In this document: positions 1-40,628 of the stretch, piece after piece | Position numbering within the stretch: position 1 is the first letter of the stretch | Layout of the letters: every line of letters starts with the position of its first letter | Source of the DNA: Pseudoalteromonas sp. R3 | Lineage (GTDB): Bacteria > Pseudomonadota > Gammaproteobacteria > Enterobacterales > Alteromonadaceae | Direction: 5' to 3' | Assembly (NCBI RefSeq): GCF_004014715.1 | Contig: NZ_CP034834.1 | Span: 868,001 to 932,000 of the forward strand | Length of the DNA stretch: 64,000 nucleotides | Program-made: the position numbers and the translations under genes | The notes under the pieces: generated by a model | What the model was told of the DNA's origin: nothing | The model's database searches: none | Seen by the model: only the letters and a program-made list of their open reading frames with translations

Positions 1-3000
1 TTTCATCTGGCCTGGGCGCAGGTGATAGCCGCCTGTTGTGGGTCGCAGGAGGTGGTATTTGGCAGTGTGATGTCTGGCCGGATGAATGGCATGGCGGGCA
101 TTGAGACCATGATGGGAATGATGATCAACACCCTGCCATTGCGTGTTTCACTGGATGAGGCTCCTGTGCTGACTCAGCTTAAGCGGGTCGATCAGAGCCT
201 CAAAGCCTTGTTGCCCTACGAGCAGGTATCGCTGGCCGAAGCACAAAAATACAGTGGCCTGGCCAGCGGCGCCACCCTGTTCAGCGCCATGCTGAACTAT
301 CGTCACTCTGCTGCGCATGACGATATAACTGCGCTGCACGACAGCAATGCTGCCTGGACTTTACTGAGTGCCAAAGAGCGCACCAATTATCCGTTTGGCC
401 TGTCGGTAAATGATTTAGGACAAGGCTTCTCGCTGGAGTATCAGATTGACCAACAGGTTGATGTAAAGCAGGTAGCGGCTTATCTGACCAATGCGCTGGC
501 AAACCTGGTGACAGCATTAAATGAGACACCGGAGCAACCTGTTTCTTACAGTATACTACCTGATCAGGCACAGCAGCATCAGTTGGTGCAGTGGCAGGCG
601 GATGCGCCCTGGTATCGCAGTGACCTGCAGATCCAACAGGTGTTTGAAGCACAAGCCGCAAAGACGCCAGACGCCATTGCACTGCAACTTAATGAGCAGA
701 CACTCAGTTATGGCGAGCTCAACGCGCAGGCTAACCAGTTGGCGCATTACTTACGTGAGCAACATAGCGTGACTGATGGTACTTTGGTAGGTTTATGCAT
801 TGGCCGCTCCATTCAGATGGTGGTAGCCACATTGGCGATTGTGAAAGCCGGCGGTGCCTACTTGCCATTAGAGCCCAATTATCCGCAGTCCCGCCTGGAG
901 TATATGCTGGCTGACAGCGGTGCGCAGGTGATATTGACTGAACAAGCGCTTTGCGAGCGGCTCTCGTTCAGTGGTGCAGAGTTAGTGTCCGTGGATAGCC
1001 ACAACAGCCGGTTTGCTAAGTACGGTACGGATAATCCGCTGTGCAATGACGCGCAGTCACCGCAGTCTCTGGCGTATGTGATTTATACTTCGGGCTCAAC
1101 CGGAAACCCTAAAGGGGTCATGACGCCGCATCGTGCGGTGGTACGTCTGGTAGATAGTCCTGACTTTATTGAGCTGGGGAGTGACACGGCGTTTTTGCAA
1201 TGTGCCAATATCGCCTTTGATGCAGCAACCATAGAGATCTGGGGACCTTTGCTCAATGGCGGTCGTTGTGTGCTGTTCCCCGATGAATATATGACGGTAA
1301 CACGTCTGGACGAGGTGATCCGCGAACAGCAGATCACAGCCATGTTCCTGACGACCGGCCTCTTTGATGAGTGGAGCCGCACCGGGGTAACTCAGAATTC
1401 ATTGCGTTGCGTGTTGTCCGGTGGTGAATCCGCGCGTCTGAACAGCTGGGAAAAAGCGCTGGCCAGTAACCCAAACTGTCAGTTTGTTCATGTATATGGA
1501 CCCACAGAGAATACTACCTTTTCCACCTGGTATGTGGTCAATACTGACGATATTGCCCGTGGCGTGCTGCCGATTGGCACCGGGATTTGCGGTGATCGTT
1601 GCTATATTTTGTCTGCACAGCAGCAGTTGTTGCCGGTGGGCGCTGTCGGTGAGCTTTATCTGGGGGGAGCCGGATTAGCTCTGGGATACCTGAATCGCCC
1701 TGAACTTAATGCTGAGCGTTTTATTGATAATCCCTTTGTGAATTTACCCGGACAGTCTCAGTATCTTTATCGTTCTGGCGATCTGGTGCGCTACGACGAG
1801 CAAGGCCAGATTGTGTATGTTGGTCGGGTAGACGACCAGATTAAGATCCGGGGTTTTCGCGTCGAGTTAGGTGAGATTGAGCACAAACTCAATGCGCTGG
1901 AGCAGGTTGAGCAGGCCTTAGTCGTGGCTCGTAAAGACCTCAGTAATAACGCCATGATAGTGGCCTATGTGGAACCTGCGGTTCAGCTGCCTGAGGACCA
2001 GACACTGGGTCACTGGTTAAGTGAGGCACTGGGCGATAGTTTACCGACCTACATGGTGCCAGGTGCGTTTGTAGCAATGACGCAGTGGCCACTCAATGCC
2101 AATGGCAAAATTGATAAACGCGCGCTGCCAGAACCCGATATGGCAGCAGGGCAGGGGCATTATGAAGCGCCCGAAACGGATACGGAAATTCTGCTCAGTG
2201 ACATCTGGTCACAATTACTCGGGATTGAAGCAAGCAATATTAGCCGCACGGCGAACTTCTTTGAACTGGGCGGACACTCACTGCTGGTGATGAAGATCCA
2301 TGCCCGGCTTAAGCAAGCCGGGTTTACGGCAGAAGCGGCGGCTATTTTTAAGGCCCAGACCCTGGCTGAGATGGCCACCACTGTGACTAAGCTGGACGAA
2401 GAAGCGCTGAGCTGGCAAGTGCCCGCGAATGGGATAACGGCTGATGCTACTGTTATCACGCCACAAATGCTGCCATTGATTGCGCTGACCCAAAATGAAA
2501 TCGATTCAGTCTGTGCGCAGATCCCCGGTGGTGTGCAGAACATTCAGGATATTTATCCGCTGGCGCCACTGCAAGAAGGCATTTTATTTGCGCACTCTCT
2601 ACAGCAGGAATTCGACCCCTATGTGATTTCTGCGGCACTGACCTTTGCTGATGACGATAAGTTTGGACGCTTCGTTACTGCATTGGAGCAGGTTGTCGCG
2701 CGCCATGATATCTTGCGTAGCGTGATCCTCTGGCGCGGCCGGGACAAAGCGATTCAGGTGGTGCAAAGAGAGGTAGGCAGTCTGGTTGAGTGGCTGGACT
2801 TTGGTGCTGAGCAAGATGTACTGGCCGCATTTAATGACTTTGTTGAACACGGCAATCATAAAATTGATGTCGAGCAGGCCCCGCTGGTACGCATGCAGGT
2901 TGTTCGGGACGAGGCCAGTGGCAAAGTCCATGCTTTGTTTAAGCATCATCACCTGATCACCGACCATGTGTCGGTTGAATTGATCCTGGAAGAACTCGCC

Positions 3001-6000
3001 ATGTGTGTGGCGGGTGAGCAGGAAAGCTTGCCACCTCAGGTGCCTTATCGCGAGTTTGTTGCCAAATCACAGCACATTGCCAAAACCCTCGACAGCGCAG
3101 CATTTTTCTCAGCCCGTCTGGGGGAAGTCGATACGCCAACTCTACCTTTTGGCCTGGCAGATACGCTGGGTGACGGGTCGAATTCGCAGGAGCTTAGCTA
3201 TGCACTGGCACCTGAGCTGGGTGAGCGTATTCGTCAGTTGTCGCGGCAGTTACAAATGGGTCCGGCGGTGCTGTTCCATGCCGCCTGGGCACAGGTGCTG
3301 AGCCACTGCTGTAATATGCAGGATGTGGTGTTTGGTACTGTCCTCTCCGGACGCATGAGTGCTGAGGCTGGTGTAGATCGTATGCTGGGTATGCTGATCA
3401 ATACCCTGCCGGTGCGTGTCCAGCTGGCCAATGTGGATGCCAGAACCTTGCTGACTCAGGTGCACGAGCAGCTGCAAGGTTTGATCCCTTACGAGCAGGT
3501 GGCACTGGCCGAGGCCCAGCGTCATTCGCAGGTGGATCCCAGTTCGCCATTGTTTAGTACCACGCTGAACTTCCGTCACTCTGAAAACCTTGATGAGCAA
3601 CAAAGCAGCCTGTACGACATTGCAGCAGTGCGTGAGCGCAGTAACTATCCATTGGACCTGTCAGTCAATGATTTTGGTGATGCGTTCACCCTCGACTTTC
3701 AGGCTGATGCGCGTGTGCCGCTGGCGCTGGTGGCAGATCTGATGAATACCGCCATCGACAACTTGTTACATCATGCCATGCGCGATTCCGAGGAATCACC
3801 GGCTCAGTGGACAGCCTATTCTGCCGAGCAGCGTCAGGCATTACTGAGTGCGCAGCAGGGGCCGGTTGTGGCCTTAGCGCAAGCCTCGGTACATCAGTTG
3901 TTTGAGCAGCAGGCCGTTAAAACGATGGACAGAGTGGCCGTCAGCTATGGCGATGACATCCTGACCTACCACTTACTCAACGAGCGCGCCAACCAGCTGG
4001 CGCATTATTTACGTGCTGAACATCAGGTGGGCCCGAATACCTTGGTCGGCCTGTGTGTCGGTCGCTCGCTGGAAATGATGGTGGCGGTGCTGGCCATCCT
4101 CAAAGCCGGTGGTGCCTATGTGCCGCTGGATCCGGATTACCCGCAGGAACGTCTGGCGTATATGGTCGAGGACACCGGTCTGTCTGTGGTGCTGACCCAG
4201 CAAAAAGTGGCTGCCATGCTGAGCGATTTTAACGTCACACCAGTGCTGCTGGATGATGCCAGCCAGTTCGCAGGCTACCCAATCAGTAACCCGGATGTGG
4301 CGCTAAGCCCTGAGAGCCTGGCCTATGTGATGTACACCTCGGGCTCAACCGGTAACCCCAAGGGCGTGATGATAAGCCATCACAACCTTATCAATTTTGC
4401 CGCGAACTGTGAGCAGCGCTACGAAATCACCGAAGCCGACAACGTGTTGCAGTTCTCGACCATGAACTTCGATATTTTCGTCGAAGAATGGCTGGCGACG
4501 CTGACTCAGGGCGCCACTTTGGTGCTGCGCGATGAAGAGGTGTCGCTGAGCCGCGAGGCCTTCATCGCCTTCTGTGACAGCCATGCTATCAGTGTGGCCA
4601 GCTTACCAACGGCATTCTGGCATATGCTGGCGCTGAGCGACGCGGAGCTTGAGTCTCTGGCGCTGCGACTGGTGATTGTCGGCGGTGAGGCGCTGGATAA
4701 ACAGTCGGTGGCCGCGCTTAAACCGGGTTTTGTGCTACTGAATACCTATGGTCCGACCGAGACTACCGTCACGGCATCGGGCTATGCCATCAGCGGCGGG
4801 TACGATGCGCCCCGCGCTGTGCCCATAGGTCGTGCCAACGTGAATACCGCGACCCTGGTGCTCAGCGAGCAGCTGACCTTATGCCCGCCGAGTGTGGTGG
4901 GAGAGTTGTATATCAGTGGTCAGTGTCTGGCCAGTGGCTACTTACATCAAAGCGAACTCACCGCCGAGCGCTTTATTGACAATCCTTACTTTGACCCGGC
5001 CAACCCTGCGCTGAGCGCCCGTTTATACAAAACCGGCGACCTGGTACGCATGGGCGCAGACGGCGAAATCGAGTTTGTCGGACGCAGCGATGATCAGGTC
5101 AAGATCCGTGGTTTCCGGGTCGAGCTGGGGGAGATAGAAAGCCAGCTGATGAGCCATGAGCTGGTGGAGTCGGCGGTGGTACTGGCCGAATCTGGCGCTC
5201 TTGATGGTACGAACAGGGGCGGCAAGGTGCTGCGTGCTTTCATTCAAAGTGCGCAAGACAGCAGCCTGATTGATGCACTGCAACAGCACCTGAGCGGTAA
5301 TCTGCCGGATTACATGGTGCCCTCGGCCTACAGCTTTGTGGACCAGTGGCCGCTGACCGCCAATGGCAAGCTGGACAAGCGCGCATTGCTGGCCCTGCCG
5401 ACTAAAACAGTAGAGCAGCCTTATCTGGCACCACACACCGACGCCGAAAAAATGGTGGTCGAGATTGTCGCCTCCCTGTTGTCGCTCGACGCCGATAAGG
5501 TGGGTGTCCACGCTAATTTCTTCGCGCTCGGCGGCCACTCCTTGCTGATTATGCAGCTGGTCAGTCAGCTGCGCGCACGTCAGTATCAGGCTGATGTGCA
5601 GGCCCTGTTCAGGGCACACACGCTACAGGACATGGCACGCCAGGTTCGGGCACTTGGGAATGAGGAATCAAGCTGTGTGCCCGCCAATTTAATTCCGGCG
5701 GACTGTAGCAAAATCACCCCGGAGATGGTGACGCTCACTGAGCTGGATGAACAACAGTTGGCCGATATTGCGGCAACCATCTCCGGTGGCATGGCCAATA
5801 TTCAGGACATCTACCCGCTGGCACCGCTGCAAGAAGGCGTGCTGTTTGTGCACACCATGAGTGAAGGGCAGGACCCGTATGTTACCAGCACCACCTTTGA
5901 ATTCGACAGCCACGAGTCGCTCGAACGCTTTAAGTGGGCACTCAATGCCCTCATTGCCCGCCACGATGTACTGCGCACCGCCATTTTATGGCGCAACCGC

Positions 6001-9000
6001 ACTACCGCACTTCAGGTGGTACAGCGCGAGGTAACGTTGCCTGTAACTGAGCTGGACTTCAGTGAGGCAAACGATGTCTGGAGCGCGTTCAGTGCTTATG
6101 TGGCCGGGCAGCCGCTGTGGATTGAGCTTGAAAACGCGCCGCTTTTACAACTGAGCGTGTGTGAAGACGCCGCGCAGGGCAAGCACTATGCGCTGCTGTG
6201 CGAGCATCACCTGATCTCAGATCACGTGTCACTGGAAATTCTGGTCCATGAATTAACGGCGCTGCTGAATGGCAATGAAACCAGCCTGGGTGAGCCGGTA
6301 CCTTATCGTGAATTTGTCGGTCGCACCCTGGCACGTACCGCGAGCCTGGACACCGAAGCCTTCTTCACGAAGATGCTGGGGGATGTCAGCGAACCCACCT
6401 TGCCTTATGGTCTGACCGATGTGCTCAATGACGGCTCAGGCATTGAAACCGTGCATGTCACCCTGGATGAGGCACAGGCGCAGCGTATTCGCCGCCTGAC
6501 CCGCCAGTATCACAGCAGTCCGGCGGCGTTGTTCCATCTGGTGTGGGCCAAAGTGCTGGGCGTATGCAGCGGCCAGTCGGAGGTGGTATTTGGTACTGTG
6601 TTATCGGGCCGAATGAGCGACGATGGCCTGAGCAGCCAGCTGATGGGGATGATGATCAATACCCTGCCGCTGCGCGTGTCGCTGAGCGGGCAGGATGCGA
6701 TGAGCCTGCTGGCGCAAATCAATGATGACCTGCGTGCCCTGATGCCGTACGAGCAGGTGTCACTGGCCGAGGCGCAGCGCTGTAGCGGCGTGAGTGGCCA
6801 GCTGCCCCTGTTCAGCGCGATGCTAAACTACCGTCACTCTGCAACGGAGGAGTCGCTGCTGGAACAGGAGGCCGGATTCAAGGTGATTGCCAGTGAAGAG
6901 CGCACCAACTATCCGTTTAATCTGTCGGTGGATGATTTCGGCGATGGCTTTGGGTTTGAGCTGCAGGTAGATAAACGTGCCCCGGCGGCGCGCATAGCAC
7001 AGTACCTGCAAGTGACCCTGACTCAGGTGCTGGATTTACTGGACAGCCAGAGCCATACAGCGGTGCAAAGCCTGTGTGTACTGGACGAGGCGGAGCGCCA
7101 GCAACAATTGCATAGCTGGAATGACACAGCGCTGGATTATCCGCGTGAGCTGTGTATCCACGAGCTGTTTGAGCACCAGGCGGCGGCCACGCCGGAGCAG
7201 ATTGCGCTGCGCTTTGGTGAGCAGACCCTGAGTTATGGCGAACTCAATGCCAGAGCCAACCAATTGGCCCATTATCTGCGCGCAGAGCACAAGGTCGGGC
7301 CGGATTCGTTAGTGGGCTTATGTGTTGAGCGCTCGCTGGACATGGTGATCGGCATTTGGGGTATTCTCAAAGCCGGTGGCGCTTATGTGCCGCTGGATCC
7401 CAACTACCCACAATCGCGCCTGGCCTACCTGATTGAGGATGCCAGTCTAAATGTTGTATTAAGTCAACAGAATGTTGCAGAAGAGGTAACGCTGGGGTAT
7501 GCTAACGTCGTTTTACTGGACGCACCAGAGTCTCATAATCACGACATATTTTCTGCTTATCCTGCACACGATTTGACGCGAGCAGAAACGGGTGTGTGTG
7601 CCCAGAGCTTGGCTTATCTGATCTACACCTCAGGGTCGACGGGTAAACCAAAAGGCGTGATGATTGAGCATTGCAATACTGTGGCTATGTTGCAGTGGGC
7701 GAAACAAGCCTACAGCGATGCTGAGCTGGATAAAGTGCTGGCATCGACGTCACTGAACTTTGATTTGTCGATTTATGAGCTGTTCTTGCCGCTGTGCTTT
7801 GGTTATCAAAGCGTGATAGTAAACAATGCCATGGCACTGGCCGAGCAGCAGCTTGATATCAGCATGATCAATACCGTGCCGTCGGCAATGAAAGCCTTAC
7901 TGGAAGTGGGTGCGGTGCCGCAAGGGGTTAAAGTGATTAACCTGGCGGGTGAGCCACTGACAGCGCAACAGGTGAATCAGATATTAGAAGCGTGTCCGGG
8001 GGTTGCCGTATGCAACCTCTATGGTCCGTCGGAAGATACTACTTATTCGACGGCGGCGCGTTTTACGTCTGCCTTGAGCCAGGTGCCGGATATTGGTCGG
8101 GTGATTGCAAACAGTCAGGCGTATGTGCTTGGCAGCGCACAAGAGCTGTTACCGACGGGCAGTGTGGGTGAGCTTTATCTGGGTGGTGCCGGTGTCGCGC
8201 GGGGGTATTTGAACCGTCCTGAATTGACGGCCGAGCGCTTTATCGACAACCCTTACTATGAAGCGGCGGGAGTTAATAACAGCAGGCGTTTGTATCGCAC
8301 CGGCGATTTGGTCCGTTATTGCGAAGATGGCCGTATAGAATTCATTGGCCGGATAGATGATCAGGTCAAGATCCGGGGCTTCCGGATTGAGTTGGGTGAA
8401 ATTGAACACCGACTTAATAACCATCCTGACGTGGTGACGTCTTTAGTGATGGCCCGGGAGCACACAGGTGGCGGACAATATTTGGTCGCGTATCTGCAAC
8501 CTTGTATCACGCGTGATACAAAAGAGGAAACACAGCAACAAGCCTGGTTGAGTGATGTTAAGCATGCGCTGGAAGGTGAATTACCGGCACATATGATCCC
8601 GGGCCAGTTCGTGTTGATAGACGAATGGCCTCTGACGCCAAACGGAAAAATAGATAAAAAAGCCCTGCCGGCGCCGCAAGGTATGTTGGCAGGACAAGAG
8701 TACATTGCACCACAAAACGATACAGAACATGCCCTGGTGGCAATTTGGAGTGAGTTGCTTGGACTGGAATCTGAGCAGATCAGTACCTGCGCTAACTTCT
8801 TCGAGTTGGGCGGCCATTCCCTGTATCTAATCAAGCTGGCCGGTGCGATTAAAACCCAGTTCGAAATCGAGCTGACATTACGGGAAATTTACGACGCTGC
8901 AGAATTAGCGGTCCTTTCACAGGTAATTGAGAGCAAGCAGGCCCAAAAATATCTCGAAGACAAAAAAGCCAATGAATCGGTAATGATGAGTGGAACACTA

Positions 9001-9003
9001 TAA
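1..9003 (+). CDS. NRPS-A, multimodular nonribosomal peptide synthetase (5' end outside window)
   Basis: Cytoplasmic peptide synthetase subunit with three visible modules. The frame is open from base 1 (FHLAWAQV...), so the GTG at 22 is an internal valine and the gene starts upstream. Domains by base: end of a C domain (1-540); A1 (610-2120), T1 (GGHSL near 2275); C (2540-3810, HHLITDH near 2945); A2 (3880-5400), T2 (near 5535); C (5800-7050, HHLISDH near 6205); A3 (7150-8660), T3 (near 8810). Codes aligned by eye to the GrsA Phe pocket: A1 DAIFLGVTFK (Ile/Val-like), A2 DIESIGTVTK (Glu at 239, resembling the bacitracin Lys code, so a basic residue), A3 DLYNNALTYK (resembles an Ala code). Both internal C domains have the dual condensation/epimerisation style (DIYPLAPLQEG, HHxxxDH). 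There is no thioesterase; the protein ends in a polar tail after T3. The stop overlaps the start of the next gene (TAATG). Bases 3981-7401 recur in NRPS-D. NRPS identity is certain; the A1-A3 substrates are tentative. Confidence 0.97.
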   Translation, partial: FHLAWAQVIAACCGSQEVVFGSVMSGRMNGMAGIETMMGMMINTLPLRVSLDEAPVLTQLKRVDQSLKALLPYEQVSLAEAQKYSGLASGATLFSAMLNYRHSAAHDDITALHDSNAAWTLLSAKERTNYPFGLSVNDLGQGFSLEYQIDQQVDVKQVAAYLTNALANLVTALNETPEQPVSYSILPDQAQQHQLVQWQADAPWYRSDLQIQQVFEAQAAKTPDAIALQLNEQTLSYGELNAQANQLAHYLREQHSVTDGTLVGLCIGRSIQMVVATLAIVKAGGAYLPLEPNYPQSRLEYMLADSGAQVILTEQALCERLSFSGAELVSVDSHNSRFAKYGTDNPLCNDAQSPQSLAYVIYTSGSTGNPKGVMTPHRAVVRLVDSPDFIELGSDTAFLQCANIAFDAATIEIWGPLLNGGRCVLFPDEYMTVTRLDEVIREQQITAMFLTTGLFDEWSRTGVTQNSLRCVLSGGESARLNSWEKALASNPNCQFVHVYGPTENTTFSTWYVVNTDDIARGVLPIGTGICGDRCYILSAQQQLLPVGAVGELYLGGAGLALGYLNRPELNAERFIDNPFVNLPGQSQYLYRSGDLVRYDEQGQIVYVGRVDDQIKIRGFRVELGEIEHKLNALEQVEQALVVARKDLSNNAMIVAYVEPAVQLPEDQTLGHWLSEALGDSLPTYMVPGAFVAMTQWPLNANGKIDKRALPEPDMAAGQGHYEAPETDTEILLSDIWSQLLGIEASNISRTANFFELGGHSLLVMKIHARLKQAGFTAEAAAIFKAQTLAEMATTVTKLDEEALSWQVPANGITADATVITPQMLPLIALTQNEIDSVCAQIPGGVQNIQDIYPLAPLQEGILFAHSLQQEFDPYVISAALTFADDDKFGRFVTALEQVVARHDILRSVILWRGRDKAIQVVQREVGSLVEWLDFGAEQDVLAAFNDFVEHGNHKIDVEQAPLVRMQVVRDEASGKVHALFKHHHLITDHVSVELILEELAMCVAGEQESLPPQVPYREFVAKSQHIAKTLDSAAFFSARLGEVDTPTLPFGLADTLGDGSNSQELSYALAPELGERIRQLSRQLQMGPAVLFHAAWAQVLSHCCNMQDVVFGTVLSGRMSAEAGVDRMLGMLINTLPVRVQLANVDARTLLTQVHEQLQGLIPYEQVALAEAQRHSQVDPSSPLFSTTLNFRHSENLDEQQSSLYDIAAVRERSNYPLDLSVNDFGDAFTLDFQADARVPLALVADLMNTAIDNLLHHAMRDSEESPAQWTAYSAEQRQALLSAQQGPVVALAQASVHQLFEQQAVKTMDRVAVSYGDDILTYHLLNERANQLAHYLRAEHQVGPNTLVGLCVGRSLEMMVAVLAILKAGGAYVPLDPDYPQERLAYMVEDTGLSVVLTQQKVAAMLSDFNVTPVLLDDASQFAGYPISNPDVALSPESLAYVMYTSGSTGNPKGVMISHHNLINFAANCEQRYEITEADNVLQFSTMNFDIFVEEWLATLTQGATLVLRDEEVSLSREAFIAFCDSHAISVASLPTAFWHMLALSDAELESLALRLVIVGGEALDKQSVAALKPGFVLLNTYGPTETTVTASGYAISGGYDAPRAVPIGRANVNTATLVLSEQLTLCPPSVVGELYISGQCLASGYLHQSELTAERFIDNPYFDPANPALSARLYKTGDLVRMGADGEIEFVGRSDDQVKIRGFRVELGEIESQLMSHELVESAVVLAESGALDGTNRGGKVLRAFIQSAQDSSLIDALQQHLSGNLPDYMVPSAYSFVDQWPLTANGKLDKRALLALPTKTVEQPYLAPHTDAEKMVVEIVASLLSLDADKVGVHANFFALGGHSLLIMQLVSQLRARQYQADVQALFRAHTLQDMARQVRALGNEESSCVPANLIPADCSKITPEMVTLTELDEQQLADIAATISGGMANIQDIYPLAPLQEGVLFVHTMSEGQDPYVTSTTFEFDSHESLERFKWALNALIARHDVLRTAILWRNRTTALQVVQREVTLPVTELDFSEANDVWSAFSAYVAGQPLWIELENAPLLQLSVCEDAAQGKHYALLCEHHLISDHVSLEILVHELTALLNGNETSLGEPVPYREFVGRTLARTASLDTEAFFTKMLGDVSEPTLPYGLTDVLNDGSGIETVHVTLDEAQAQRIRRLTRQYHSSPAALFHLVWAKVLGVCSGQSEVVFGTVLSGRMSDDGLSSQLMGMMINTLPLRVSLSGQDAMSLLAQINDDLRALMPYEQVSLAEAQRCSGVSGQLPLFSAMLNYRHSATEESLLEQEAGFKVIASEERTNYPFNLSVDDFGDGFGFELQVDKRAPAARIAQYLQVTLTQVLDLLDSQSHTAVQSLCVLDEAERQQQLHSWNDTALDYPRELCIHELFEHQAAATPEQIALRFGEQTLSYGELNARANQLAHYLRAEHKVGPDSLVGLCVERSLDMVIGIWGILKAGGAYVPLDPNYPQSRLAYLIEDASLNVVLSQQNVAEEVTLGYANVVLLDAPESHNHDIFSAYPAHDLTRAETGVCAQSLAYLIYTSGSTGKPKGVMIEHCNTVAMLQWAKQAYSDAELDKVLASTSLNFDLSIYELFLPLCFGYQSVIVNNAMALAEQQLDISMINTVPSAMKALLEVGAVPQGVKVINLAGEPLTAQQVNQILEACPGVAVCNLYGPSEDTTYSTAARFTSALSQVPDIGRVIANSQAYVLGSAQELLPTGSVGELYLGGAGVARGYLNRPELTAERFIDNPYYEAAGVNNSRRLYRTGDLVRYCEDGRIEFIGRIDDQVKIRGFRIELGEIEHRLNNHPDVVTSLVMAREHTGGGQYLVAYLQPCITRDTKEETQQQAWLSDVKHALEGELPAHMIPGQFVLIDEWPLTPNGKIDKKALPAPQGMLAGQEYIAPQNDTEHALVAIWSELLGLESEQISTCANFFELGGHSLYLIKLAGAIKTQFEIELTLREIYDAAELAVLSQVIESKQAQKYLEDKKANESVMMSGTL
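3981..7401 (+). repeat. 3.4-kb direct repeat, copy 1 (in NRPS-A)
   Basis: Runs from the N-terminal part of A2 (from the codons for ERANQLAHYL) through T2 and the following C domain to the VPLDP segment early in A3. It matches 24251-27656 with long identical tracts (for example around 5560-5660 and 6940-7180) between more divergent ones. Copy 1 carries five extra codons near 5200-5220. Both edges fall inside A domains. Outside the edges the two genes diverge sharply. Boundaries were judged by eye. Confidence 0.9.
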
Positions 9004-10829
9004 TGATTGCACAATTAGTTAAATCGGCAGCAGACCAAGGCGTTTATCTGTATGCCAAAGAGGGCGCGTTACATTTTGACCTGACGGTGGCCGAATTTCC
9101 GGCCACGCTGAAGCAGGACATCATAGCAAACAAGGCCGAAATCATCGCATTTCTGTCTCATGCACAAAGCGCAGACAGCGAGTCGCAAAGGCCGCAACCC
9201 GGACACTATCCGGATGGCTGCGTCCTCTCTTATACTCAGCAGCGCTTCTGGCTGCTGGAGCAAATGCAATCAGGTCAAAGTCAATACAATATGCCTGTTG
9301 CGCTGAATGTTGAAGGCGCACTGGAACTGACTTTGGTTGAAAAGGTGCTCAGCACTATCGTGGCACGCCATCAGATCCTGCGCACCGTTTATCGTGAGCA
9401 GGATGATGAAGTGCGTCAGCATGTTTTGCAAAACAGTGATGTTACTCTGAGCTTTGTCGATCTCAGTGACTGTGAAGGTGAGCAACAGCAGGCGCAGCTG
9501 TCTCAGTGTCTGCTTGAAGAGGCGCAGCGTCCATTTGATTTGACCCAACAACTTTCGATCCGCGGTCAGTATCTCAAGCTTCAGGGAACCGGCCATACTC
9601 AGCAAGGCGTGTTGTTGCTGACGCTGCACCACATTGCTTCTGACGGCTGGTCTATGGATGTATTGATCAATGAGTTTGTGACTCTGTATCGGGCCTATTC
9701 AGCTGAGCAGGTAAACCCGTTACCTGAACTGGCACTGCAATACGCCGACTTTGCCGTGTGGCAAAGAGACAAAATGCAGGGCGGCGAATTTGAGAAGCAA
9801 CTGACATACTGGCAGCAGGCGCTGGAAGATGCACCGCTGGCACACAGCCTGCCGACCCAGCATCATCGCCCGGAAGTAAAACAAACACAGGGGGCACATG
9901 TCACTGCCACCTTGCCTGCGTATGTAGCACAGCAACTGGGCGAGGTAGCCAGACAGGCTCATCTGAGCCCGTTTATGTTGATGCACGCTGTTTTGGGTGT
10001 GGTACTTAGCCGTCACAGCAACCAGTCAGATATTGTCATTGGCACGCCGGTAGCAAACCGCGCCGATGAGGCTCTGAGCCCGTTGATTGGTTGTTTTGTC
10101 AATACCCTGGCACTGCGCCTGAACACCTGTCACAGCACTCTGGCCGAGTACTTTGCTCATGTTCGTCAGGTGCATATGAACGCCCAGGTCAATCAGGACG
10201 TGCCTTTTGAGCAGCTCATTGATGCCTTGAATCTGCCACGTACTTCGTCTTATACGCCTTTGGTGCAGATCATGCTGACCACCAATGACAAGTTTACCGA
10301 CGGCGCCGATGAATCATCTTTACTGAATCTGCCAGACTTGAGCCTGTCTCCGCTTCAGGGCAGTCATCCGGCCATCAAATTCGATATGGAAATTGCGCTG
10401 AATATCAGCGATAAGCAGATTGAGACCATCTGGAACTACGACGTGGCCTTGTTCGACGCTGAATTTGTAGAGCAGCTAAGTGAACACTTTAACAATGCCC
10501 TGATAGCTCTGGCAGATATGTCTGCTCAGACACGTAGCACCTTGCCTTTGAATCGTCTGTCTATTCTGGGTGACAAGCTCGAATCCTATCTGATCGATGG
10601 TCTGAATAACAATGCTGCTGATTATCCTCTCGAGCAGTGTATTCATGAGATATTTGAGCAGCAGGCGATGCAGACGCCTGATCAGATTGCCGTTAAGTTT
10701 GGCAGTAAACAGCTGACCTATCGTGAGCTTAATGAGCGTGCCAACCAGCTCGCCCATTTCCTGACTCGTGAATATCAGGTTACCCGGATACCTTTATTGG
10801 CTTGTGTGTTGAGCGCTCGCTGGAAATGA
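9003..10829 (+). CDS. NRPS-B, N-terminal part of a frameshifted synthetase (docking domain, C, start of A4)
   Basis: First part of a one-module NRPS subunit. Residues 1-55 resemble a TubC-type docking domain (GVYLYAKEGALHF, then a helix ending NKAEIIAFL), which would bind the C-terminal tail of NRPS-A. The C domain follows at bases 9220-10500; it starts CVLSYTQQRFWLLEQ and carries a canonical HHIASDGWS motif near 9630, the style that joins two L-residues. The adenylation domain begins near 10630 and reads well to QVT, then runs into RIPLLACVLSARWK and a stop at 10829. The alignable reading (QVTPDTFIGLCVERS) returns if one C is added to the CCC at 10783-10785. Starts at the A of TAATG, overlapping the NRPS-A stop by one base. 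With the frame restored, the full protein would be 1174 residues (9003-12526). Either the module is dead here or the base is a sequencing error. Confidence 0.9.
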   Translation: MIAQLVKSAADQGVYLYAKEGALHFDLTVAEFPATLKQDIIANKAEIIAFLSHAQSADSESQRPQPGHYPDGCVLSYTQQRFWLLEQMQSGQSQYNMPVALNVEGALELTLVEKVLSTIVARHQILRTVYREQDDEVRQHVLQNSDVTLSFVDLSDCEGEQQQAQLSQCLLEEAQRPFDLTQQLSIRGQYLKLQGTGHTQQGVLLLTLHHIASDGWSMDVLINEFVTLYRAYSAEQVNPLPELALQYADFAVWQRDKMQGGEFEKQLTYWQQALEDAPLAHSLPTQHHRPEVKQTQGAHVTATLPAYVAQQLGEVARQAHLSPFMLMHAVLGVVLSRHSNQSDIVIGTPVANRADEALSPLIGCFVNTLALRLNTCHSTLAEYFAHVRQVHMNAQVNQDVPFEQLIDALNLPRTSSYTPLVQIMLTTNDKFTDGADESSLLNLPDLSLSPLQGSHPAIKFDMEIALNISDKQIETIWNYDVALFDAEFVEQLSEHFNNALIALADMSAQTRSTLPLNRLSILGDKLESYLIDGLNNNAADYPLEQCIHEIFEQQAMQTPDQIAVKFGSKQLTYRELNERANQLAHFLTREYQVTRIPLLACVLSARWK

Positions 10830-12526
10830 TCATAGGTACTCTGGCTATCCTCAAAGCCGGTGCGGCATACGTACCACTGGATCCGGCCTATCCGCGTCAG
10901 CGTGTCACCTATATGATGGAAAATTCCGGTGTTAAAATCATCCTTTCAACGCACTTTATTATCGAACAACTGGATTTAACCGATTACCACAGCATTTGTA
11001 TTGACGGACTTGGTAATGCACAAGTGGTTCAGACCTTTGTTGATTACCCCACCTATAATCCAAGTGAGTTGGTAAAGGGGCTGACGTCGTCAAATCTGGC
11101 CTATGCCATTTACACCTCGGGCTCGACGGGTAAGCCGAAGGGCGTGCTGCTTGAGCATAAGGGGATAGTGAATATTGCGTTTAACCACCGTCACTACCTG
11201 AAAGTAGATGAGCAAAGCAAGGTCTTACATTTTGCTTCTATGAGCTTTGATGCAGGGACCTGGGAATATGTGATGGCGTTGTTGAGTGGCGCCACTTTGG
11301 TCATTGCTGACAGTGTTCAGCGTTTGTCTCCGGAGAGTATTACTCAGTTACTTCACAGCGAAGCCATTACCCATGTGCTGTTGCCTCCGGCATTTCTGGC
11401 CATGATGGAGTTTCGTGATGACTTAGCACTTAAAGCGCTGGCTGTGGGTGGAGAAGCCTGTGATCAGGAAGTGGTTGAGCAGTGGGGGGGCTCCTACCGG
11501 ATGGTCAATGCCTACGGCCCGACTGAGATCTCTATCTGTGCAACCTGGGCTGAATTGCGTCCCGGGCAGAAAGTCACCATAGGTAAGCCCCTGAAAAATA
11601 CCAGTGCCTTTGTGCTGGACAGTAATCAGGCCTTGTTGTCACCGGGGGTAGTCGGTGAGCTGTACATCAGTGGTGTTGGTCTGGCGCGGGGTTATCACCA
11701 GTTACCTGAGCAAACCGCTGAGCGATTTGTGCCGAATCCTTATTTCGATGGCCACAATAAATGTGTAACCGAAACCTTGTATAAAACAGGGGACCTGGTC
11801 CGATATTTACCCGATGGCGAGCTGGAATATCTGGGGCGTATCGACCAGCAGGTCAAGATCCGGGGCTTCAGAATCGAAATCAGTGAAATAGAAGGTTTAC
11901 TGAGTGAGTGTCTTGATGTGGATGCCGCGGTGGTCACTGTTGTGACCAGTGCAACGGGAGCCAAACACTTAGTGGCCTATGTGCAGCTTAGCAACCAAAT
12001 CGCTGTTAATACGGCCTCTGGCCATGAAAATATTAATGACAGTCAGGCTGCAATCCAGCGGATCAAAACAGAACTGGCAGACAGACTCCCTGATTACATG
12101 GTACCCGGGATGTTTGTGCCAGTATCACAGTGGCCTTTGACCAGTAATGGCAAGATTGATAAGCGCGCACTGCCTGAGCCGGACATGACCGCGATTGAAG
12201 GGGAGTACATAGCGCCCGAAACCAGCAGCGAAAAGCGTTTGGTGGTTATCTGGGCGCAGTTACTGCATTTGCAGGAAAGTGAAATCAGTACCTCAGCCAA
12301 TTTCTTTGCGCTGGGTGGTCACTCCCTGCTGGTTAGTAAGCTGGTCAGAGCTATCACGTCGGACCCGGAATTACAGCTACAACAGATAGACATGCAGGAC
12401 ATTTTTACGGCGCAGTCGCTGGCCCAGCTGGCCCAGCACATTGACTTGCTGCGAATGCAACAGCTCAATGCGCAGGCGGCAGACAGTATCTGCGATCAGG
12501 ATTTAGTTGAGGATGGTGAGATTTAA
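10802..12526 (+). CDS. NRPS-B, C-terminal part after the frameshift (rest of A4, T)
   Basis: Continuation of the previous entry in another frame; it is not an independent gene. The TTG at 10802 is the Leu codon of the conserved LCVERS segment, and no ribosome-binding site precedes it. It holds most of A4 (SGSTG near 11120, YGPTE near 11515, NGKID near 12145) and a carrier domain (GGHSL near 12315). The A4 code is DAWLAGAICK. It resembles Phe codes of the DAWTxAAICK kind, so an aromatic or leucine-like residue is possible, but this is weak. After the T domain comes an acidic tail ending LVEDGEI, a plausible docking peptide for the TubC-type N-terminus of NRPS-C. The stop overlaps the next start (TAATG at 12524-12528). 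If translation cannot cross the indel, A4 lacks its N-terminal part and the pathway would be interrupted here. Confidence 0.9.
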   Translation: MCVERSLEMIIGTLAILKAGAAYVPLDPAYPRQRVTYMMENSGVKIILSTHFIIEQLDLTDYHSICIDGLGNAQVVQTFVDYPTYNPSELVKGLTSSNLAYAIYTSGSTGKPKGVLLEHKGIVNIAFNHRHYLKVDEQSKVLHFASMSFDAGTWEYVMALLSGATLVIADSVQRLSPESITQLLHSEAITHVLLPPAFLAMMEFRDDLALKALAVGGEACDQEVVEQWGGSYRMVNAYGPTEISICATWAELRPGQKVTIGKPLKNTSAFVLDSNQALLSPGVVGELYISGVGLARGYHQLPEQTAERFVPNPYFDGHNKCVTETLYKTGDLVRYLPDGELEYLGRIDQQVKIRGFRIEISEIEGLLSECLDVDAAVVTVVTSATGAKHLVAYVQLSNQIAVNTASGHENINDSQAAIQRIKTELADRLPDYMVPGMFVPVSQWPLTSNGKIDKRALPEPDMTAIEGEYIAPETSSEKRLVVIWAQLLHLQESEISTSANFFALGGHSLLVSKLVRAITSDPELQLQQIDMQDIFTAQSLAQLAQHIDLLRMQQLNAQAADSICDQDLVEDGEI

Positions 12527-21500: not shown

Positions 21501-22533
21501 GATCAGCCATGTTGAGCAGTTCCAAACCATGCTGCCAGCGGCGCAGCTTCATAACCTCTATGGCCCGACCGAAGCGGCCATTGACGTCAGCTATTGGGAC
21601 TGCGCGCAGCCTCATGGCAGCAGCGTGCCTATTGGTCGGCCAATCCAGAATATCCAGCTATACATCCTTGATGAGGCGCTGAACTTGTTGCCAAAAGGCG
21701 CCTGTGGCGAGTTACACATAGGCGGTGATGGTCTGGCACGTGGATATCACAATCGCGCAGACCTGACAGAGGAGCGCTTTATCGCCAACCCGTTTTACGA
21801 TGACAGCCAGCCAGGCAGCAGTCAGCGCCTGTATAAAACCGGCGATCTGGTTCGTTACCGTGCTGATGGCATTATTGAATACATGGGGCGTATTGACCAT
21901 CAGGTGAAGATCCGCGGGTTGCGCATTGAGCTTGGCGAGATTGAGTATCACATCGGTGAGCATTGCGAAGTCGACTCCGCACTGGTGATGGCACTGGGTG
22001 ACCAACAGGGTAATCAGCACCTGGTCGGCTATGTTAAACCGCACTCGCTGGGTACAGACGATACCCGGCAAGCACTTATTGATTCTATCAAAGCACAACT
22101 GGGTGAGTCTCTTGCTGAGTATATGATCCCGGCCAGTTTTGTGCTGCTGGAAGAATGGCCACAAACGCCCAACGGCAAAATTGACCGTAAAGCCCTGCCT
22201 GCTCCGGAGCACGCCGGGCTCGGTGGTGAATACGTTGCGCCTGACAGCGACACCGAGCGGACTCTGGTGACTATCTGGTCGCAGGTACTTGGCCTGGATG
22301 AAGCGCATATCAGCACGCAGGCGAGTTTCTTCTCACTGGGTGGTCAGTCTTTGCTGGTCGTCAAACTGATGAAAGAAATAGAGGCCAAGTTTGACTGCGC
22401 GCTGACCATCAAACAGTTATTTAAGTACACCTCGGTGGCTGAACAAGCCTTGCAGTTAGACGAGCTGCACGCTGCTCAGGCTCTGAAAGACAAGTTAGAA
22501 CAATCAGATAATGTAGAAAGGATTGTGTTTTAA
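12526..22533 (+). CDS. NRPS-C, three-module synthetase predicted to add Ser-Thr-Ser
   Basis: Cytoplasmic NRPS subunit of 3335 residues. The N-terminus (about residues 1-55, GVHLYVEQGKLKF, AAKG) is a TubC-type docking domain. Modules by base: C (12760-14060, HHIVSDGWS near 13160), A5 (14150-15680), T (GGHSL near 15805); C (16080-17340, HHILLDH near 16480, dual-type), A6 (17430-18930), T (near 19065); C (19250-20560, HHIASDGWS near 19666), A7 (20680-22200), T with GGQSL near 22340. Codes read by eye: A5 and A7 both DVWHFSLIDK, the serine signature; A6 DFWNVGMVHK, the threonine signature with one conservative change. These are the firmest predictions in the operon. The third C domain is internal yet of the LCL style, unlike most internal C domains here. 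No epimerisation or release domain is present. The tail ends QSDNVERIVF. Start and stop overlap their neighbours in TAATG junctions, so translation is probably coupled. Confidence 0.97.
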   Translation: MNVHQAFELAISQGVHLYVEQGKLKFKAAKGSMTDELRSALKENKTQLIELLSQQAEKATVLTQSTGNIPALGLTHSVLSFSQQRLWFLEQLRGPSAEYNIPLALDVQGRVDLAAVEDAFNDIMARHTILRSGYYDSEDGPRQTIREDVALNIHQIDLSNSDEQATELAAHIERDTLKPFDLTKDVLFRVTYLCTHQYNDGTQQGVLLLNMHHIVSDGWSMEILTGEFIQAYQARVSGQLPSWTPLPLQYADYAHWQRETLTQQALAEQLSYWQQSLADAPAVHGIIPDFERPATKQLHGDLVRSELGATEAQALQNLARQHQLTPFMLIHSALAYVLSRHSNSNDIVIGTPIANRGHAELEGLIGYFANTLVLRVNTGQSSIGDYFAHVKSVHLGAQANQDVPFEQLVEKLNVPRSGAHAPLFQIMLTTNSDYGVRDQQLALDGLQIAQRPASSVTTKFDLEIEVSLNEQGVAIEITYDTALYRAHRVAAIAQHLSTVLTQLARLTPADVSGKLSALSLLSDAERKQQLADWNDTQRAYPRQLCVHELFEQQAKATPDAIALRFDGLTMSYESLNTKANQLAHYLRTEHNIGPDTLVGLCTERSFEMVIGIWGILKAGGAYVPLDPELPSGRLNYLIEDASANVVLSTQEVIERVSLGDATVIALDGFDFAAYSGSNIAVSDIGLTANHLAYAIYTSGSTGQPKGVLLEHQALHNRIDWMDNEYGCEPQDKILQKTPYSFDVSVWEFVWPMLKGAELVIAKPGGHKDPAYLSELIEKTGVTKLHFVPSMLGVMLEHGDLARCSTIRQVFCSGEALQVSHVEQFKVRLPEAQLHNLYGPTEAAIDVSYWDCALPHGSSIPIGKPIQNIQLYILDDGLNLLPQGACGELHIGGDGLARGYHNRPELTEERFIANPFYPQSPGKRLYKTGDLVRFREDGNIEYMGRLDHQVKIRGQRIELGEIEYHIGEHAQVDSALVLAMKDDKGNQRLVAYVKPSAELTEETQQALIASVQEQLGESLADYMIPANFVLLNEWPQTPNGKIDRKALPVPQSLGYEVAYVAPITEQEKVLAELCAELLTLELDEVSMAANFFELGGHSLMVMELVSRLKKQGWSTSVQALFNARVLGEMAKTITDGSPQSAPELPQNGIPAQCTRITPDMVTLASMTQSELDSLAQRIPGGAANIADIYPLAPLQESIFLVHSATEKTDPYVTTITLEFGCKDEIDRFVTRFNQIIARYDVLRTLVAWRERQAPLQLVLRHCELLPTWLSFSGQQDARQKLDAYVAQGIHRMDLELAPLVQLELAHDPVTDKYCGVLKEHHILLDHISVEMIMTELAMDEQAFRQLPEPLAYRQFIAQTLHNAEHLNTRDYFTEQLGDIDTPCHPFGLDSTQADELHCNDLHVELTLEQSQQIRTQMQQRGMSPAAFFHLAWAMVVSACSQSRDVVFGTVLSGRMSGQQGIEQMMGMMINTLPLRVNLADKPAAVLLEQVDKSLLGLMPYEQASLTEAQACSGVSTQTPLFSAIFNYRHSRLAEASAQDGAQATAARERTNYPFNLCVDDWGEGFSFNLQVERSVDINAVCDYVACAIEQLLSALNKESDTPVAQLAVLTEAQQDALMLANVGEVVSIDSVSSIQARFERQVARVGERTALVYQQESLTYHELNARANALAHYLIDAHDIRSDTLVGLCVGRGVNMIVGILAILKAGGAYVPLDPNYPQERLDFICQDAGVVLVLSEDQVADALAIQDTPVIDLNQLPLTGYSTDNVQLAAHTSDNLAYVIYTSGSTGKPKGVLQTHRNVGRLFDVTQPDFNFSEDDCWCVFHSFAFDFSVWEIWGALLFGGKLLMPSLDEVKDSQLFVELCQRNALTILNQTPSAFKQLTEYLVATRQALPSLRSIVFGGEGLTPSHVTQWWTHFASQPTELINMYGITETTVHVTYKRIEPGAQINIGRPLRDQHIVLLDDALKLVPKGCAGEIYVGGAGLALGYLNREALSAERFIDNPFDRGRYPWLGERLYRAGDLARYDEQGELHYLGRQDDQVKIRGHRIELGEVENRIAELTMVDSALVLAVPAVDGTLQLVAYVKSAQDSADEHWLSHLKEALGEQLPAYMLPGAIVTVQQWPLTANGKVDRRALPAPDSGLAQQAYVAPRNDTEYTLVGIWAELLKLEHSQVSVEANFFELGGHSLLLMKLLAGIREQLNCELSVKDIFAATTIAQQALRVAQQANTVVQPPIVAQPREANAHLPLSFAQQRLWFIDKLNGSSAEYNMPVAFDVDGELDLDAAQAALNCLIARHEALRTVYLEQDAEPVQLIRSKVQLTLTLHDLSDLNEHTKADRLSQLLKEDALTPFKLDSDLMLRAQYILLNYAAQGEAQRGVLAFNMHHIASDGWSVELMSNEFMALYQAATQGTEASLLPLAIQYADYALWQRDWLSQEQGGAKALETQLNYWRETLADAPAVHSLQLDKARPEEKAFNANGFTSLLPGSLSQGLKAFAEAARITPFMLVHSALAYVLSRHSNQQDIVIGTPVANRAQPEVAGLIGYFANTLVLRVNTHHSSLGDYLAHVKDAHIGAQSHQDVPFEQLVDALQIPRSTAYSPVFQIMLTTNSEFALAEQPEQGLAGLTFTPRLPQACSTKFDIEINIDLDEAGLTVNWLYDCALFTEQHIAALDKHLQGVLRYLARLTQAQLANPMDTLPLLSEQERYEQLHQWNDTVREYDQALCVHELFEQQVVKSPNQTALRFGAQTMSYRELNTRANQLADYLRNEHGVGPDTLVGLCVERSFEMVIGIWGILKAGGAYVPLDPELPSARLNYLVADASARVVLSTQEVAARVMLGEACVIELDGFNYHAYSDADIAPSDIGLSARNLAYTIYTSGSTGMPKGVLLEHQALHNRIDWMDNEYHCGPDDKILQKTPYSFDVSVWEFVWPMLKGAELVIAKPGGHKDPGYLSDLIVETGITKLHFVPSMLGVMLEHGDLSRCTSIQQVFCSGEALQISHVEQFQTMLPAAQLHNLYGPTEAAIDVSYWDCAQPHGSSVPIGRPIQNIQLYILDEALNLLPKGACGELHIGGDGLARGYHNRADLTEERFIANPFYDDSQPGSSQRLYKTGDLVRYRADGIIEYMGRIDHQVKIRGLRIELGEIEYHIGEHCEVDSALVMALGDQQGNQHLVGYVKPHSLGTDDTRQALIDSIKAQLGESLAEYMIPASFVLLEEWPQTPNGKIDRKALPAPEHAGLGGEYVAPDSDTERTLVTIWSQVLGLDEAHISTQASFFSLGGQSLLVVKLMKEIEAKFDCALTIKQLFKYTSVAEQALQLDELHAAQALKDKLEQSDNVERIVF

Positions 22534-25500
22534 TGAAACCGCAACAGTTAGTCAGTCTGCTTCAGGAAAAGTTGATTTTGGTGAGTGTCTCTGACGGGTC
22601 ACTTGTAGTCGAAGCTGAAAAGGGCGCAGTCACAGCAGAGATTGCGCAACTGATCAGAGAGAATAAAACACAATTACTAGATTATTTAAGCGACAGCGAA
22701 ACACAGCCCAAGCGCCAGGCTATTACGCCGCGTACTGAGCAGTACCAGACGTTTGCACCACTGTCTTTTTCACAGCGCCGGTTGTGGTTTATCGACCAGC
22801 TGCAACAGGGAGCAGCCCAGTATAATATGCCCGCTTTGCTGACGGTTACGGGTAAGCTGGATCTGGCGGTGGCCGAGCGCGCCTGTCAGGCCATCATCCG
22901 TCGCCATGAAATACTGCGCACTGTGATAGTGGAAGGTGAAAACGGTGCACGGCAGCACATTCGTGATGATGTGGCGTTTGCGATTTCACAGAGCGATTTG
23001 AGCGCATTGGAAGCAAGCGCCCGTTCGACGCAGCTTGAAACCCTGATTGATGGAGAGCTCAGTACCCCGTTTGATCTGACCCGGGATGTGATGATGCGGG
23101 CGCGCTATATTCTGCTGGCCGACCCAGGCACTGCGCAACAAGCAGGGGTGTTGCTGTTCAATATGCATCATATTGCCTCCGATGGCTGGTCAATTGAATT
23201 GCTCAGTCAGGAGTTTCTGACTTTATATCGGGCGTTTGCACAGAATGCTGCCAATCCATTACCTGAGCTGACTATCCAGTACGCAGACTATGCGCTGTGG
23301 CAGCAAACCTGGTTACAGGAAAATGTACTGGAAACTCAGCTGGCATATTGGCAGGAAACCCTGGCCGATGCTCCTTCTGTCCACAGTCTGCCCTTAAAAC
23401 AGCCTCGCCCGGAAGAAAAGCAAAGTGCTGCCGGGTGCCAGAGCTTTAACCTTGACAGTGCACTCAGTCCGCAGCTGAGCACAGTGGCACAGCGCCACCA
23501 GATGTCGCCATTTATGCTGGTACACAGTGCGCTGAGCTGGGTACTGGCCCAGCACAGCAACCAGCAGGATATTCTGATTGGTACGCCGGTTGCCAATCGA
23601 TTGCAAAGTGAGCTGGAGCCGCTGATCGGTTTTTTTGTCAATAACCTGGTGCTCAGAACTCAGACCAGGCATGCCACGCTGGGAGACTATTTCGCGCATG
23701 TGCGCGATGTGCATCGCAATGCGCAGGCCAATCAGGATGTGCCGTTTGAGCAACTGGTTGAGCGTCTTAATGTGGAGCGCAGCCTGTCGCACGATCCGCT
23801 GTTTCAGATCATGCTGTCTATGGACAGTGAGTTTGGTGTCAGCGATCAGGCCGATGCTGGACTGGACGGACTGCACTTTGCTCAATATGAGCGCGAGATA
23901 GTGTCGCTGAAGTACGACATAGATATCGATATTACCCCACAGGATGAAGGCTACACACTGCGCTGGACCTACGATCTGGCGCTGTTTGAGCCAAATTATA
24001 TAGAGACGTTAAATCGCCATTTGAATCGGGCACTACAACTGTTCTGTGACAGTGCCGCCAGCACCGCACTTGCTCAGTTGACCCTGATGGATAAGCAGGA
24101 GCAACAGGCGCACCTTACACAACTGTGTGGACCGGGCGTGTCCTTGCCGTCTACTCCGGTACATCAGCTGATTGAAGCGCGAGTGGCCCGAAGCGAATTC
24201 CGCACAGCGGTGACGTGTCGGGATGGTGCGCTCAGTTATCAGCAGTTGAACGAACGCGCCAACCAGCTGGCGCATTATTTACGTGCTGAACATCAGGTGG
24301 GCCCGAATACCTTGGTTGGCCTGTGTGTTGGTCGCTCGCTGGAAATGATGGTGGCGGTGCTGGCCATCCTCAAAGCAGGCGGGGCCTATGTGCCGCTGGA
24401 CCCGGATTATCCGCAGGAGCGTCTGGCCTATATGGTCGAAGACACCGGCCTGTCTGTGGTGCTGACCCAGCAAAAAGTGGCTGCCATGCTGAGCGATTTT
24501 AACGTCACATCAGTGCTGCTGGATGATGCCAGCCAGTTTGCAGGCTACCCAATCTGCAACCCGGATGTGGCGCTAAGCCCTGAGAGCCTGGCCTATGTGA
24601 TGTACACCTCGGGCTCAACCGGTAACCCCAAGGGCGTGATGATAAGCCATCACAACCTTATCAACTTTGCCGCGAACTGTGAGCAGCGCTACGAAATCAC
24701 CGAAGCCGACAACGTATTGCAGTTCTCTACCATGAACTTCGATATTTTTGTTGAAGAATGGCTGGCGACGCTGACTCAGGGCGCCACTTTGGTGCTGCGC
24801 AACGACGATGTGTCGCTGAGCCGCGAGGCCTTTATCACTTTTTGTGACAGCCATGCCATCAGCGTGGCCAGCTTACCCACGGCGTTCTGGCATATGCTGG
24901 CGCTGAGCGAAGCGGAGCTTGAGTCTCTGGCATTGCGACAGGTGATTGTCGGCGGTGAAGCGCTGGATAAACAGTCGGTGGCGTCGCTTAAACCAGGCTT
25001 TGTGTTGCTTAATACCTATGGTCCGACCGAGACCACGGTCACCGCTTCCGGCTATGCCATCAGTGGCGGGTACGATGCGCCGCGCGCGGTGCCCATTGGC
25101 CGCGCCAACGTCAATACTGCGACTCTGGTACTCAGCGAGCAGCTGACGTTATGCCCGCCGGGTGTGGTCGGTGAGCTGTACATCAGTGGTCAGTGTCTGG
25201 CCAGTGGTTACTTACATCAAAGCGAACTCACCGCCGAGCGTTTTATTGATAACCCGTATTGTGACCCGGCCAACCCGGCGCTGAGCGCCCGTTTATACAA
25301 AACCGGCGACCTGGTGCGCATGGCCGCAGATGGCGAAATTGAGTTTGTCGGACGCAGTGATGATCAGGTCAAGATCCGTGGTTTCCGCGTCGAACTGGGT
25401 GAGATTGAAACTCAGTTGATGAGCCATGAGCAGGTAGAGTCGGCGGTGGTGTTGGCCGAAGCTGGTAGGCAAGGCGGCAAGGTACTTAGGGCTTTCATTC

Positions 25501-40479: not shown

Positions 40480-40537
40480 CTATTTCGACTGTCCCCAACA
40501 ATTTCCCCAATCTGTATACATTGCCAGATGACACGTC

Positions 40538-40543: not shown

Positions 40544-40628
40544 CCCGCGCGATTTTGCGCGCTAACAGGTAACCATGATCATCTGATGGCGCGACTAATT
40601 TTTAAGGTACATATTTAAAAGGATAAAT

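Follow-up and report, generated by a model that had tools for sequence, protein, structure and literature searches.

Evidence for concerted evolution of a repeated A-T-C unit in a nonribosomal peptide synthetase line of Pseudoalteromonas

Background

The stretch of DNA analysed in this work (the window) comprises 64,000 nucleotides of Pseudoalteromonas sp. R3. It lies within a 1.33-Mb contig of a genome of two contigs (5.8 Mb) and carries part of a run of nonribosomal peptide synthetase (NRPS) genes which begins approximately 27 kb upstream of the window start, extends to position 32501 and encodes 17 adenylation (A) domains according to a motif count. NRPS gene A (1..9003, plus strand, as are the unit copies with their flanks and NRPS genes B and D) has an open frame starting about 4 kb before the window, and the fourth NRPS gene of the window, NRPS gene D, occupies 22533..32501. 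Each of these two genes contains one copy of a 3.4-kb unit, designated copy A (3979..7401) and copy D (24249..27656), composed of most of an A domain, a carrier (T) domain, a condensation (C) domain and the start of the next A domain. A preliminary description of this DNA had noticed the two matching segments and ascribed them to repeated gene conversion and to movement of whole modules.

Genomes and comparisons

The genus search covered 108 Pseudoalteromonas genomes (E up to 1e-60), ten of which, the window's own included, gave a match; the best matches of the unit among named genomes were Pseudoalteromonas rubra S2471, S2676 and S2599 and Pseudoalteromonas sp. XMcav2-N. Seven genomes, including that of the window, form what is called here the P. 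rubra group, and two more distant ones are designated G102 and G001. Because their copies are incomplete, G094 and G001 were left out of the identity, edge, site-pattern, tree, clustering and nearest-copy analyses; copy D of G106 ends about 33 bases before the unit edge. The motifs at the edges are those we take to be A1 and A2, the substrate names of A-domain pockets (e.g. Ser, Val) are presumed readings from code tables, and pocket letters were compared with the fifth and sixth places not used.

Structure of the repeated unit

Copies A and D are 92.9% identical (241 differences in 3408 aligned ungapped columns), with 180 of the 241 differences at third codon positions and 46 of 1136 compared codons differing at the protein level. 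BLAST of the window against itself returned them as a single 3467-base match (3979-7444 versus 24249-27699, 92.4%), and in the window's genome the whole unit is present at two places only, the next best match being a 284-base piece of 73% identity. In global alignment the identity steps at the left edge from 40% over the 60 columns before 3978/24248 to 97% over the following 60, and on the right it is down to 43% from about position 7458; the 600-base flanks of the two copies match at 42-54%. The longest identical tract spans 251 bases (6925..7175), and further identical runs extend over 138 (from 5530), 113 (from 6073) and 107 bases (from 4288). Of 1040 synonymous-informative codons 154 differ, and these are clustered: the longest unchanged run is 100 codons, against a permutation mean of 34, and was matched in none of 20,000 shuffles, so the silent-site mosaic of this pair goes beyond chance. 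Long matches that are in places identical over more than 100 bases, abrupt passage to strongly differing flanking DNA and alternation of identical and divergent tracts, all noticed in the preliminary description, were thus borne out; the silent-site and sliding-window check recommended there showed the divergence to be uneven, not even and moderate.

Pfam recognizes in both copies an AMP-binding domain from profile position 28 to the end, its C-terminal domain, a carrier and a condensation domain. The left edge falls inside the A1 motif (between LTYHLL and NERANQ in copy A, between LSYQQL and NERANQ in copy D), and the right edge directly after the A2 motif LKAGGAYVPLDP of the next A domain. 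The extension from early in one A domain to early in the next, as first proposed, can therefore be specified as A1 to A2, corresponding to one module plus approximately 50 residues, with well conserved sequence from early in the A domain at either end. In four genomes the 270 bases preceding A2 were 0.66-0.77 identical to their five best partners and the following 180 bases 0.56-0.71, as determined for the module types examined, with homogenised pairs excluded and with a ranking by the pre-A2 figure that flatters this figure.

The pocket of the unit's A domain begins D-I-E and has the same letters in both copies of the window; its acidic residue presumably points to a basic amino acid. The C domain of the unit carries the His motif EHHLISDH. 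Copy A is followed by the remaining part of an A domain with a DLY-type pocket and then by a T domain (7402..9003), and copy D by the remaining part of an A domain with a Ser-type pocket (DVW..LID) and further sequence (27657..29656); the first 600 bases of either right flank group by position across genomes. Since the next A domains differ, the same C domain would, judging from the sequence, stand before two different acceptors. In the literature on P. rubra NRPSs the titles of the best 15 of 1,451 matches named no product of this cluster.

Comparison across genomes

Both copies were found at the same two positions, 20.25-20.30 kb apart, in 8 of the 108 genomes, the window's included. Among the ten matching genomes none was seen to have a single copy or to have lost the intervening 20 kb; G001 and G094 are fragmented at the locus, and their contig ends speak for two copies. 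Within the unit the A-D identity of the same genome amounts to 0.906-0.996. Between P. rubra-group genomes the A-A, D-D and A-D comparisons all give 0.88-0.93, orthologous copies being no closer than crossed ones, and the identity to the G102 unit is about 0.66. A 15-base stretch (5197..5211) present in copy A is missing from copy D of the window's genome, the only one of the eight with a mixed state; in the seven others both copies agree (present in three, absent in four).

Quartet site patterns counted over the 28 genome pairs favoured grouping by genome, by locus and across in the ratio 10133/323/384 in the unit, as opposed to 401/4841/117 in the left and 144/3499/86 in the right flank. Omission of G102 (21 pairs) left 3081/320/378 in the unit, and third positions alone gave the same grouping as all sites. 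Across seven genomes not a single letter difference between A and D is fixed in the unit, compared with 404 of 1309 flank columns. In the unit tree copies A and D of the same genome are sisters in seven of the eight genomes (five of these starred) and the position label switches eight times, whereas the flank tree separates A from D at 100/100 in all eight, G106_D covering 47% of the columns. A single clade of A copies was rejected by the approximately unbiased test (p 1e-60, or 3e-4 when G102_A was not counted in the clade). When the seven P. rubra-group genomes were scanned in 150-base windows, mean identity within genomes exceeded that between genomes in 23 of 23 windows (3979-7392), and this excess returned to background outside the unit.

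Control modules and other lineages

Three Ser modules of the same cluster served as a control. In six P. rubra-group genomes (without G106, the first module of whose gene C is of another type) they are only 72-77% alike, and in 15 genome pairs their site patterns follow the locus (1583-1791) and not the genome (137-187). That these modules keep their position and the unit, more than 90% alike, does not, fits a model in which pairs stay trapped as long as they are similar enough to recombine. In the seven P. rubra-group genomes the A/D pair was the sole repeat to pass a filter of 80% identity over 250 bases, applied to 36-68 kb of cluster per genome.

Gene C of G106 departs from the others. Its first A domain has a DIE-type pocket where the other genomes examined carry the Ser type, a natural substitution in one strain, and over its first two modules most 100-base windows are 0.4-0.8 identical to the window, far below the values of G053. 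G106 thus has in gene C, besides the two unit copies, a third A domain with the pocket letters of the unit; it matches the unit at 69% over 1.17 kb and has not been homogenised with it.

In G102 the two unit copies are 99.6% identical, with eight unclustered third-position differences, and the right edge lies at the same A2 motif. The three Ser modules used as the control are 98.5-99.1% alike in this genome, which has altogether four homogenised Ser-type modules (98.4-99.0% over 1.66-1.77 kb) and three homogenised Val-type modules (99.1-99.6% over 1.3-2.5 kb). The DLY-type A domain that follows copy A in G102 is chimeric, a Ser-module start being joined at A2 to the DLY pocket. Up to A2 this start is 98-99% identical to the four Ser modules, which indicates that conversion ran from the Ser side. 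G102 is the only genome to give a direction; in the P. rubra group several modules resemble the beginning of the next A domain to nearly the same degree (0.71-0.75; G000, G007 and G054).

The G001 unit, about 70% identical to that of G102, has been collapsed into a single 3239-base contig. The 67 bases that open it also form the end, at A1, of two contigs whose lead-ins differ, and a further contig end opens with 67 bases that stop at the A2 edge (...AYVPLD); the opening 67 bases of the unit contig probably represent the repeat overlap. The same two positions are thus homogenised in at least three lineages (P. rubra group, G102 and G001). As contigs of G094 end inside the copies, and a contig end of G106 lies there too, the early warning of assembly collapse was justified.

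Concerted evolution of the unit

Grouping by genome inside the unit, grouping by position outside it, mosaic tracts and conserved positions lead together to concerted evolution: the two 3.4-kb stretches are very probably old paralogous parts of one NRPS line that are kept alike by recurrent gene conversion. Paralogues group by genome here and the neighbouring sequence retains its positional orthology, as expected for concerted evolution; the change is non-reciprocal with unexchanged flanks, which split by position in all eight genomes, as expected for gene conversion. The repeated conversion first proposed from one pair of copies is strongly supported by site patterns, trees and identities across eight genomes, and it is this comparison, more than the alternation of tracts within one pair, that carries it. 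The idea of whole modules moving has to be abandoned, as both positions are old, the flanks group by position and the unit is overwritten in place. As the pocket letters of the two window copies are equal, the two positions are at present kept alike, with no new ones being made.

Several observations weigh against this interpretation. Copy D of G051 resembles copy A of G106 (0.9086) slightly more than its own partner (0.9055), the G051 copies being just 90.6% alike, and in the unit tree the pair from G106 (91.1%) does not come out as sisters. The pairs of G051 and G053 have weak bootstrap values (71 and 63), as have several deep branches of this tree. The left edge of G102 is shifted outward by about 140 bases compared with the other genomes, so that break points inside the A domain, another early claim, apply to the P. 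rubra group and to G001 (at A1 and A2) and not to this edge, and one residue of 200 differs between the G102 copies from A3 on, near the pocket. Exchange between strains may add to the pattern, given the G051 and G106 exceptions.

As to the mechanism, homologous recombination between the two direct repeats would copy tracts from one to the other with no exchange of flanks, presumably as RecA-type gene conversion. Conversion would halt where the flanking A-domain sequence is too diverged, and the well conserved A1-A2 stretch would hence set the edges of the unit. The expected effect is that activating pocket, carrier and condensation domain stay alike at two positions of the line, while the next A domain differs.

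Alternative explanations

A one-off copying event in each lineage, instead of continuing conversion, is very unlikely. One whole-unit event each could serve the three lineages, and G102, with its few and unclustered differences, does resemble the result of a single recent event. The copies of the sister genomes G007 and G052 were homogenised after these had split (genome 142, locus 4, cross 6), however, and mosaic identity runs exceed chance in most genomes: the longest third-position run gave p < 0.05 in seven of eight (all but G102, with its eight differences), and the variance test in six of eight (all but G051, p 0.057, and G102).

Exchange between strains, not within a genome, might have erased the positional signal, as the affinity of G051 copy D to G106 copy A and the weak deep branches of the unit tree would allow. 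Such exchange ordinarily concerns a single position, and A and D would then remain distinct, as is the case in the flanks and the Ser modules; with the nearest copy being the same-genome partner for 15 of 16 copies, it is highly improbable as the main cause.

If the unit had been duplicated recently in the window's strain and not exchanged since, the close match and abrupt edges of a single genome would be accounted for. This explanation was rejected as scarcely credible, because the positions are common to eight genomes with flanks grouping by position, and the 15 modules compared between the window's genome and G102 are collinear to judge from the first pocket letters, two of them showing small differences. 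Purifying selection toward a common substrate is equally hard to credit. The equal pocket letters of the window copies would suit it, but third positions show the pattern too and the Ser modules of six P. rubra-group genomes, in spite of their common pocket letters, have diverged; silent sites grouping by position with amino acids grouping by genome were not seen, and selection on protein sequence alone was therefore rejected. Assembly collapse or copy-over, suggested by the assemblies that do break here (G094, G001, the contig end of G106), was dismissed as having practically no probability, since the copies differ at 241 sites in the window and are both present, with differing amounts and places of difference, in eight genomes.

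GC composition of converted modules

In all three lineages the silent-site G+C (GC) content is higher in converted stretches than in the rest of the cluster. Third-position GC in 300-base windows, which overlap by half so that p values are overstated, was 0.478 in homogenised versus 0.333 in other windows of G102 (125 and 203 windows), 0.684 versus 0.568 in G000 (39 and 315), 0.659-0.682 versus 0.556-0.609 in the six other P. rubra-group genomes and 0.363 versus 0.280-0.286 in G001, with 0.371 in its unit contig. In G102 just 2 of the 203 other windows attain 0.45, and just 4 of the 125 homogenised windows lie below 0.40; in G000, 19 of 315 other windows reach 0.66. Nine homogenised A cores of G102 have third-position GC of 0.443-0.483, compared with 0.297-0.357 for six others, and a Val-type module outside the homogenisation has 0.357 versus 0.45-0.477 in the three homogenised ones.

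The simplest reading suggested by these values is GC-biased conversion. Codon selection for expression appears unlikely, as the rise occurs on three differing baselines and within single genes. Against a GC bias, no dose effect is visible among the P. rubra-group genomes, more-alike copies not being richer in GC (unit third-position GC 0.65-0.67 in G007/G052 at 97% A-D identity, 0.67-0.68 in G000 at 93% and 0.67 in G051 at 91%). First and second positions are also GC-richer in homogenised windows (0.492 versus 0.444 in G102, 0.519-0.529 versus 0.509-0.517 in the seven others), so amino-acid make-up shares in the difference. Equilibrium GC estimated from the G007/G052 pair was 0.566 in the unit, from small counts (16 AT-to-GC and 33 GC-to-AT changes), and 0.506 in the control (204 and 299). 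GC-rich DNA may instead convert more readily, or a GC-rich module may have spread after import.

The survey of other bacteria comprised 61 NRPS loci, several of them overlapping or sharing one strain; 59 had enough windows, and the 32 with at least four homogenised and at least four other windows showed a small effect (mean +0.018, 20 of 32 positive, Wilcoxon p 0.007). In most Photorhabdus loci the difference was near zero. Of twelve further Pseudoalteromonas cluster stretches, 11 had fewer than four homogenised windows, and the remaining one, with 22, gave third-position GC of 0.543 versus 0.462. The broader proposal, that GC-biased paralogue conversion in Pseudoalteromonas NRPS lines pushes silent sites to G/C whatever the substrate and that an A1-A2 landing strip defines an A-T-C unit in which one C domain serves two unlike A domains downstream, is tentative, and we regard it as possible but rather doubtful.

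Other features of the window

NRPS gene B (9003..12526) is represented by two overlapping frames of 608 and 574 amino acids in the window's genome and by a single frame of 1176-1183 codons in the seven relatives compared. It is one of three frame-broken NRPS genes of this genome, the other two lying upstream, about 14 kb and 9 kb before the window start. Each has a single-base gap relative to G054, and the frames are intact in the relatives compared; the breaks may reflect decay or sequencing error. A second NRPS gene, on the minus strand (51330-63998 and beyond), has an open frame of 5108 codons. Between the two NRPS regions there are three tandem outer-membrane beta-barrel-like genes (39725-42187) with mutual DNA matches of 82-89%, and two genes for PepO-like endopeptidases (43405-45681 and 47527-49587; under the curated cut-off), in parts about 76% identical in DNA, which flank a pentapeptide-repeat gene. 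The gene at 38526-39518 has a Pfam match to the LNS2/PITM domain; such domains are typical of eukaryotes.

Significance and comparison with known systems

The case is an unusually clean natural experiment: three or more lineages have homogenised the same positions, the edges are sharp, and the genes concerned also hold unconverted controls. A1 and A2 emerge as natural fusion points for an A-T-C swap, and the place of one C domain ahead of two differing A domains is relevant to the debate on gatekeeping by C domains. If the link to GC is true, the unit offers a direct within-gene test of the GC bias of bacterial gene conversion. It is also a warning that assemblies break or collapse at such a unit.

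In NRPS engineering the A-T-C exchange unit is fused in the C-A linker, and its C domain is matched to the next substrate. The natural unit differs from it in both respects, its edges lying at A1/A2 (P. rubra group; left edge in G001) and the next pockets being different.

The literature was searched on NRPS recombination, concerted evolution, gene conversion, P. rubra NRPSs and GC-biased conversion, and among the matches listed, mostly without subscription papers, no title or abstract start reported this unit. Medema et al. (2014; PMC4256081) describe NRPS and polyketide synthase domains that group by cluster and not by position, name calcium-dependent lipopeptide NRPSs, hold internal recombination responsible and give the model of pairs trapped while alike enough to recombine. 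Grouping by origin and internal recombination are common to both cases; there, however, the evidence comes from A- and C-domain trees between clusters for different compounds, and here from a single A-T-C unit, whose edges were mapped and for which both flanks and the silent sites provided controls, in three or more lineages belonging to one genus. Baunach et al. (2021; PMC8097286) placed break points at conserved A-domain motifs, a feature found here as well, and included one A-T-C-A exchange (BP17, iturinic lipopeptide). In their account the A core tends to be exchanged and both the C-A linker and the Asub-T interface remain native, whereas the unit described here holds Asub, T, C and the next linker and leaves the pocket letters unchanged. 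Calcott et al. (2020; PMC7486941), who argue against coevolution of C and A domains, located hotspots between C and A and between A2 and A4; these are hotspots of A-domain substitution, in contrast to the edges of a repeatedly homogenised two-copy unit. Booth et al. (2022; PMC9205934) report A-domain exchange within a genome and name gene conversion as a homogenising force, but that single exchange changed specificity and the present pair is kept alike. The GC enrichment of recombining genes in Lassalle et al. (2015; PMC4450053) was found across genes and clades; in the present case conversion takes place between paralogous modules within the same genes. Concerted evolution of NRPS domains, break points in the A domain and one A-T-C-A exchange are thus already in print; the additions made here are a mapped, recurring A-T-C unit edged by A1 and A2, the matched controls and the GC mark.

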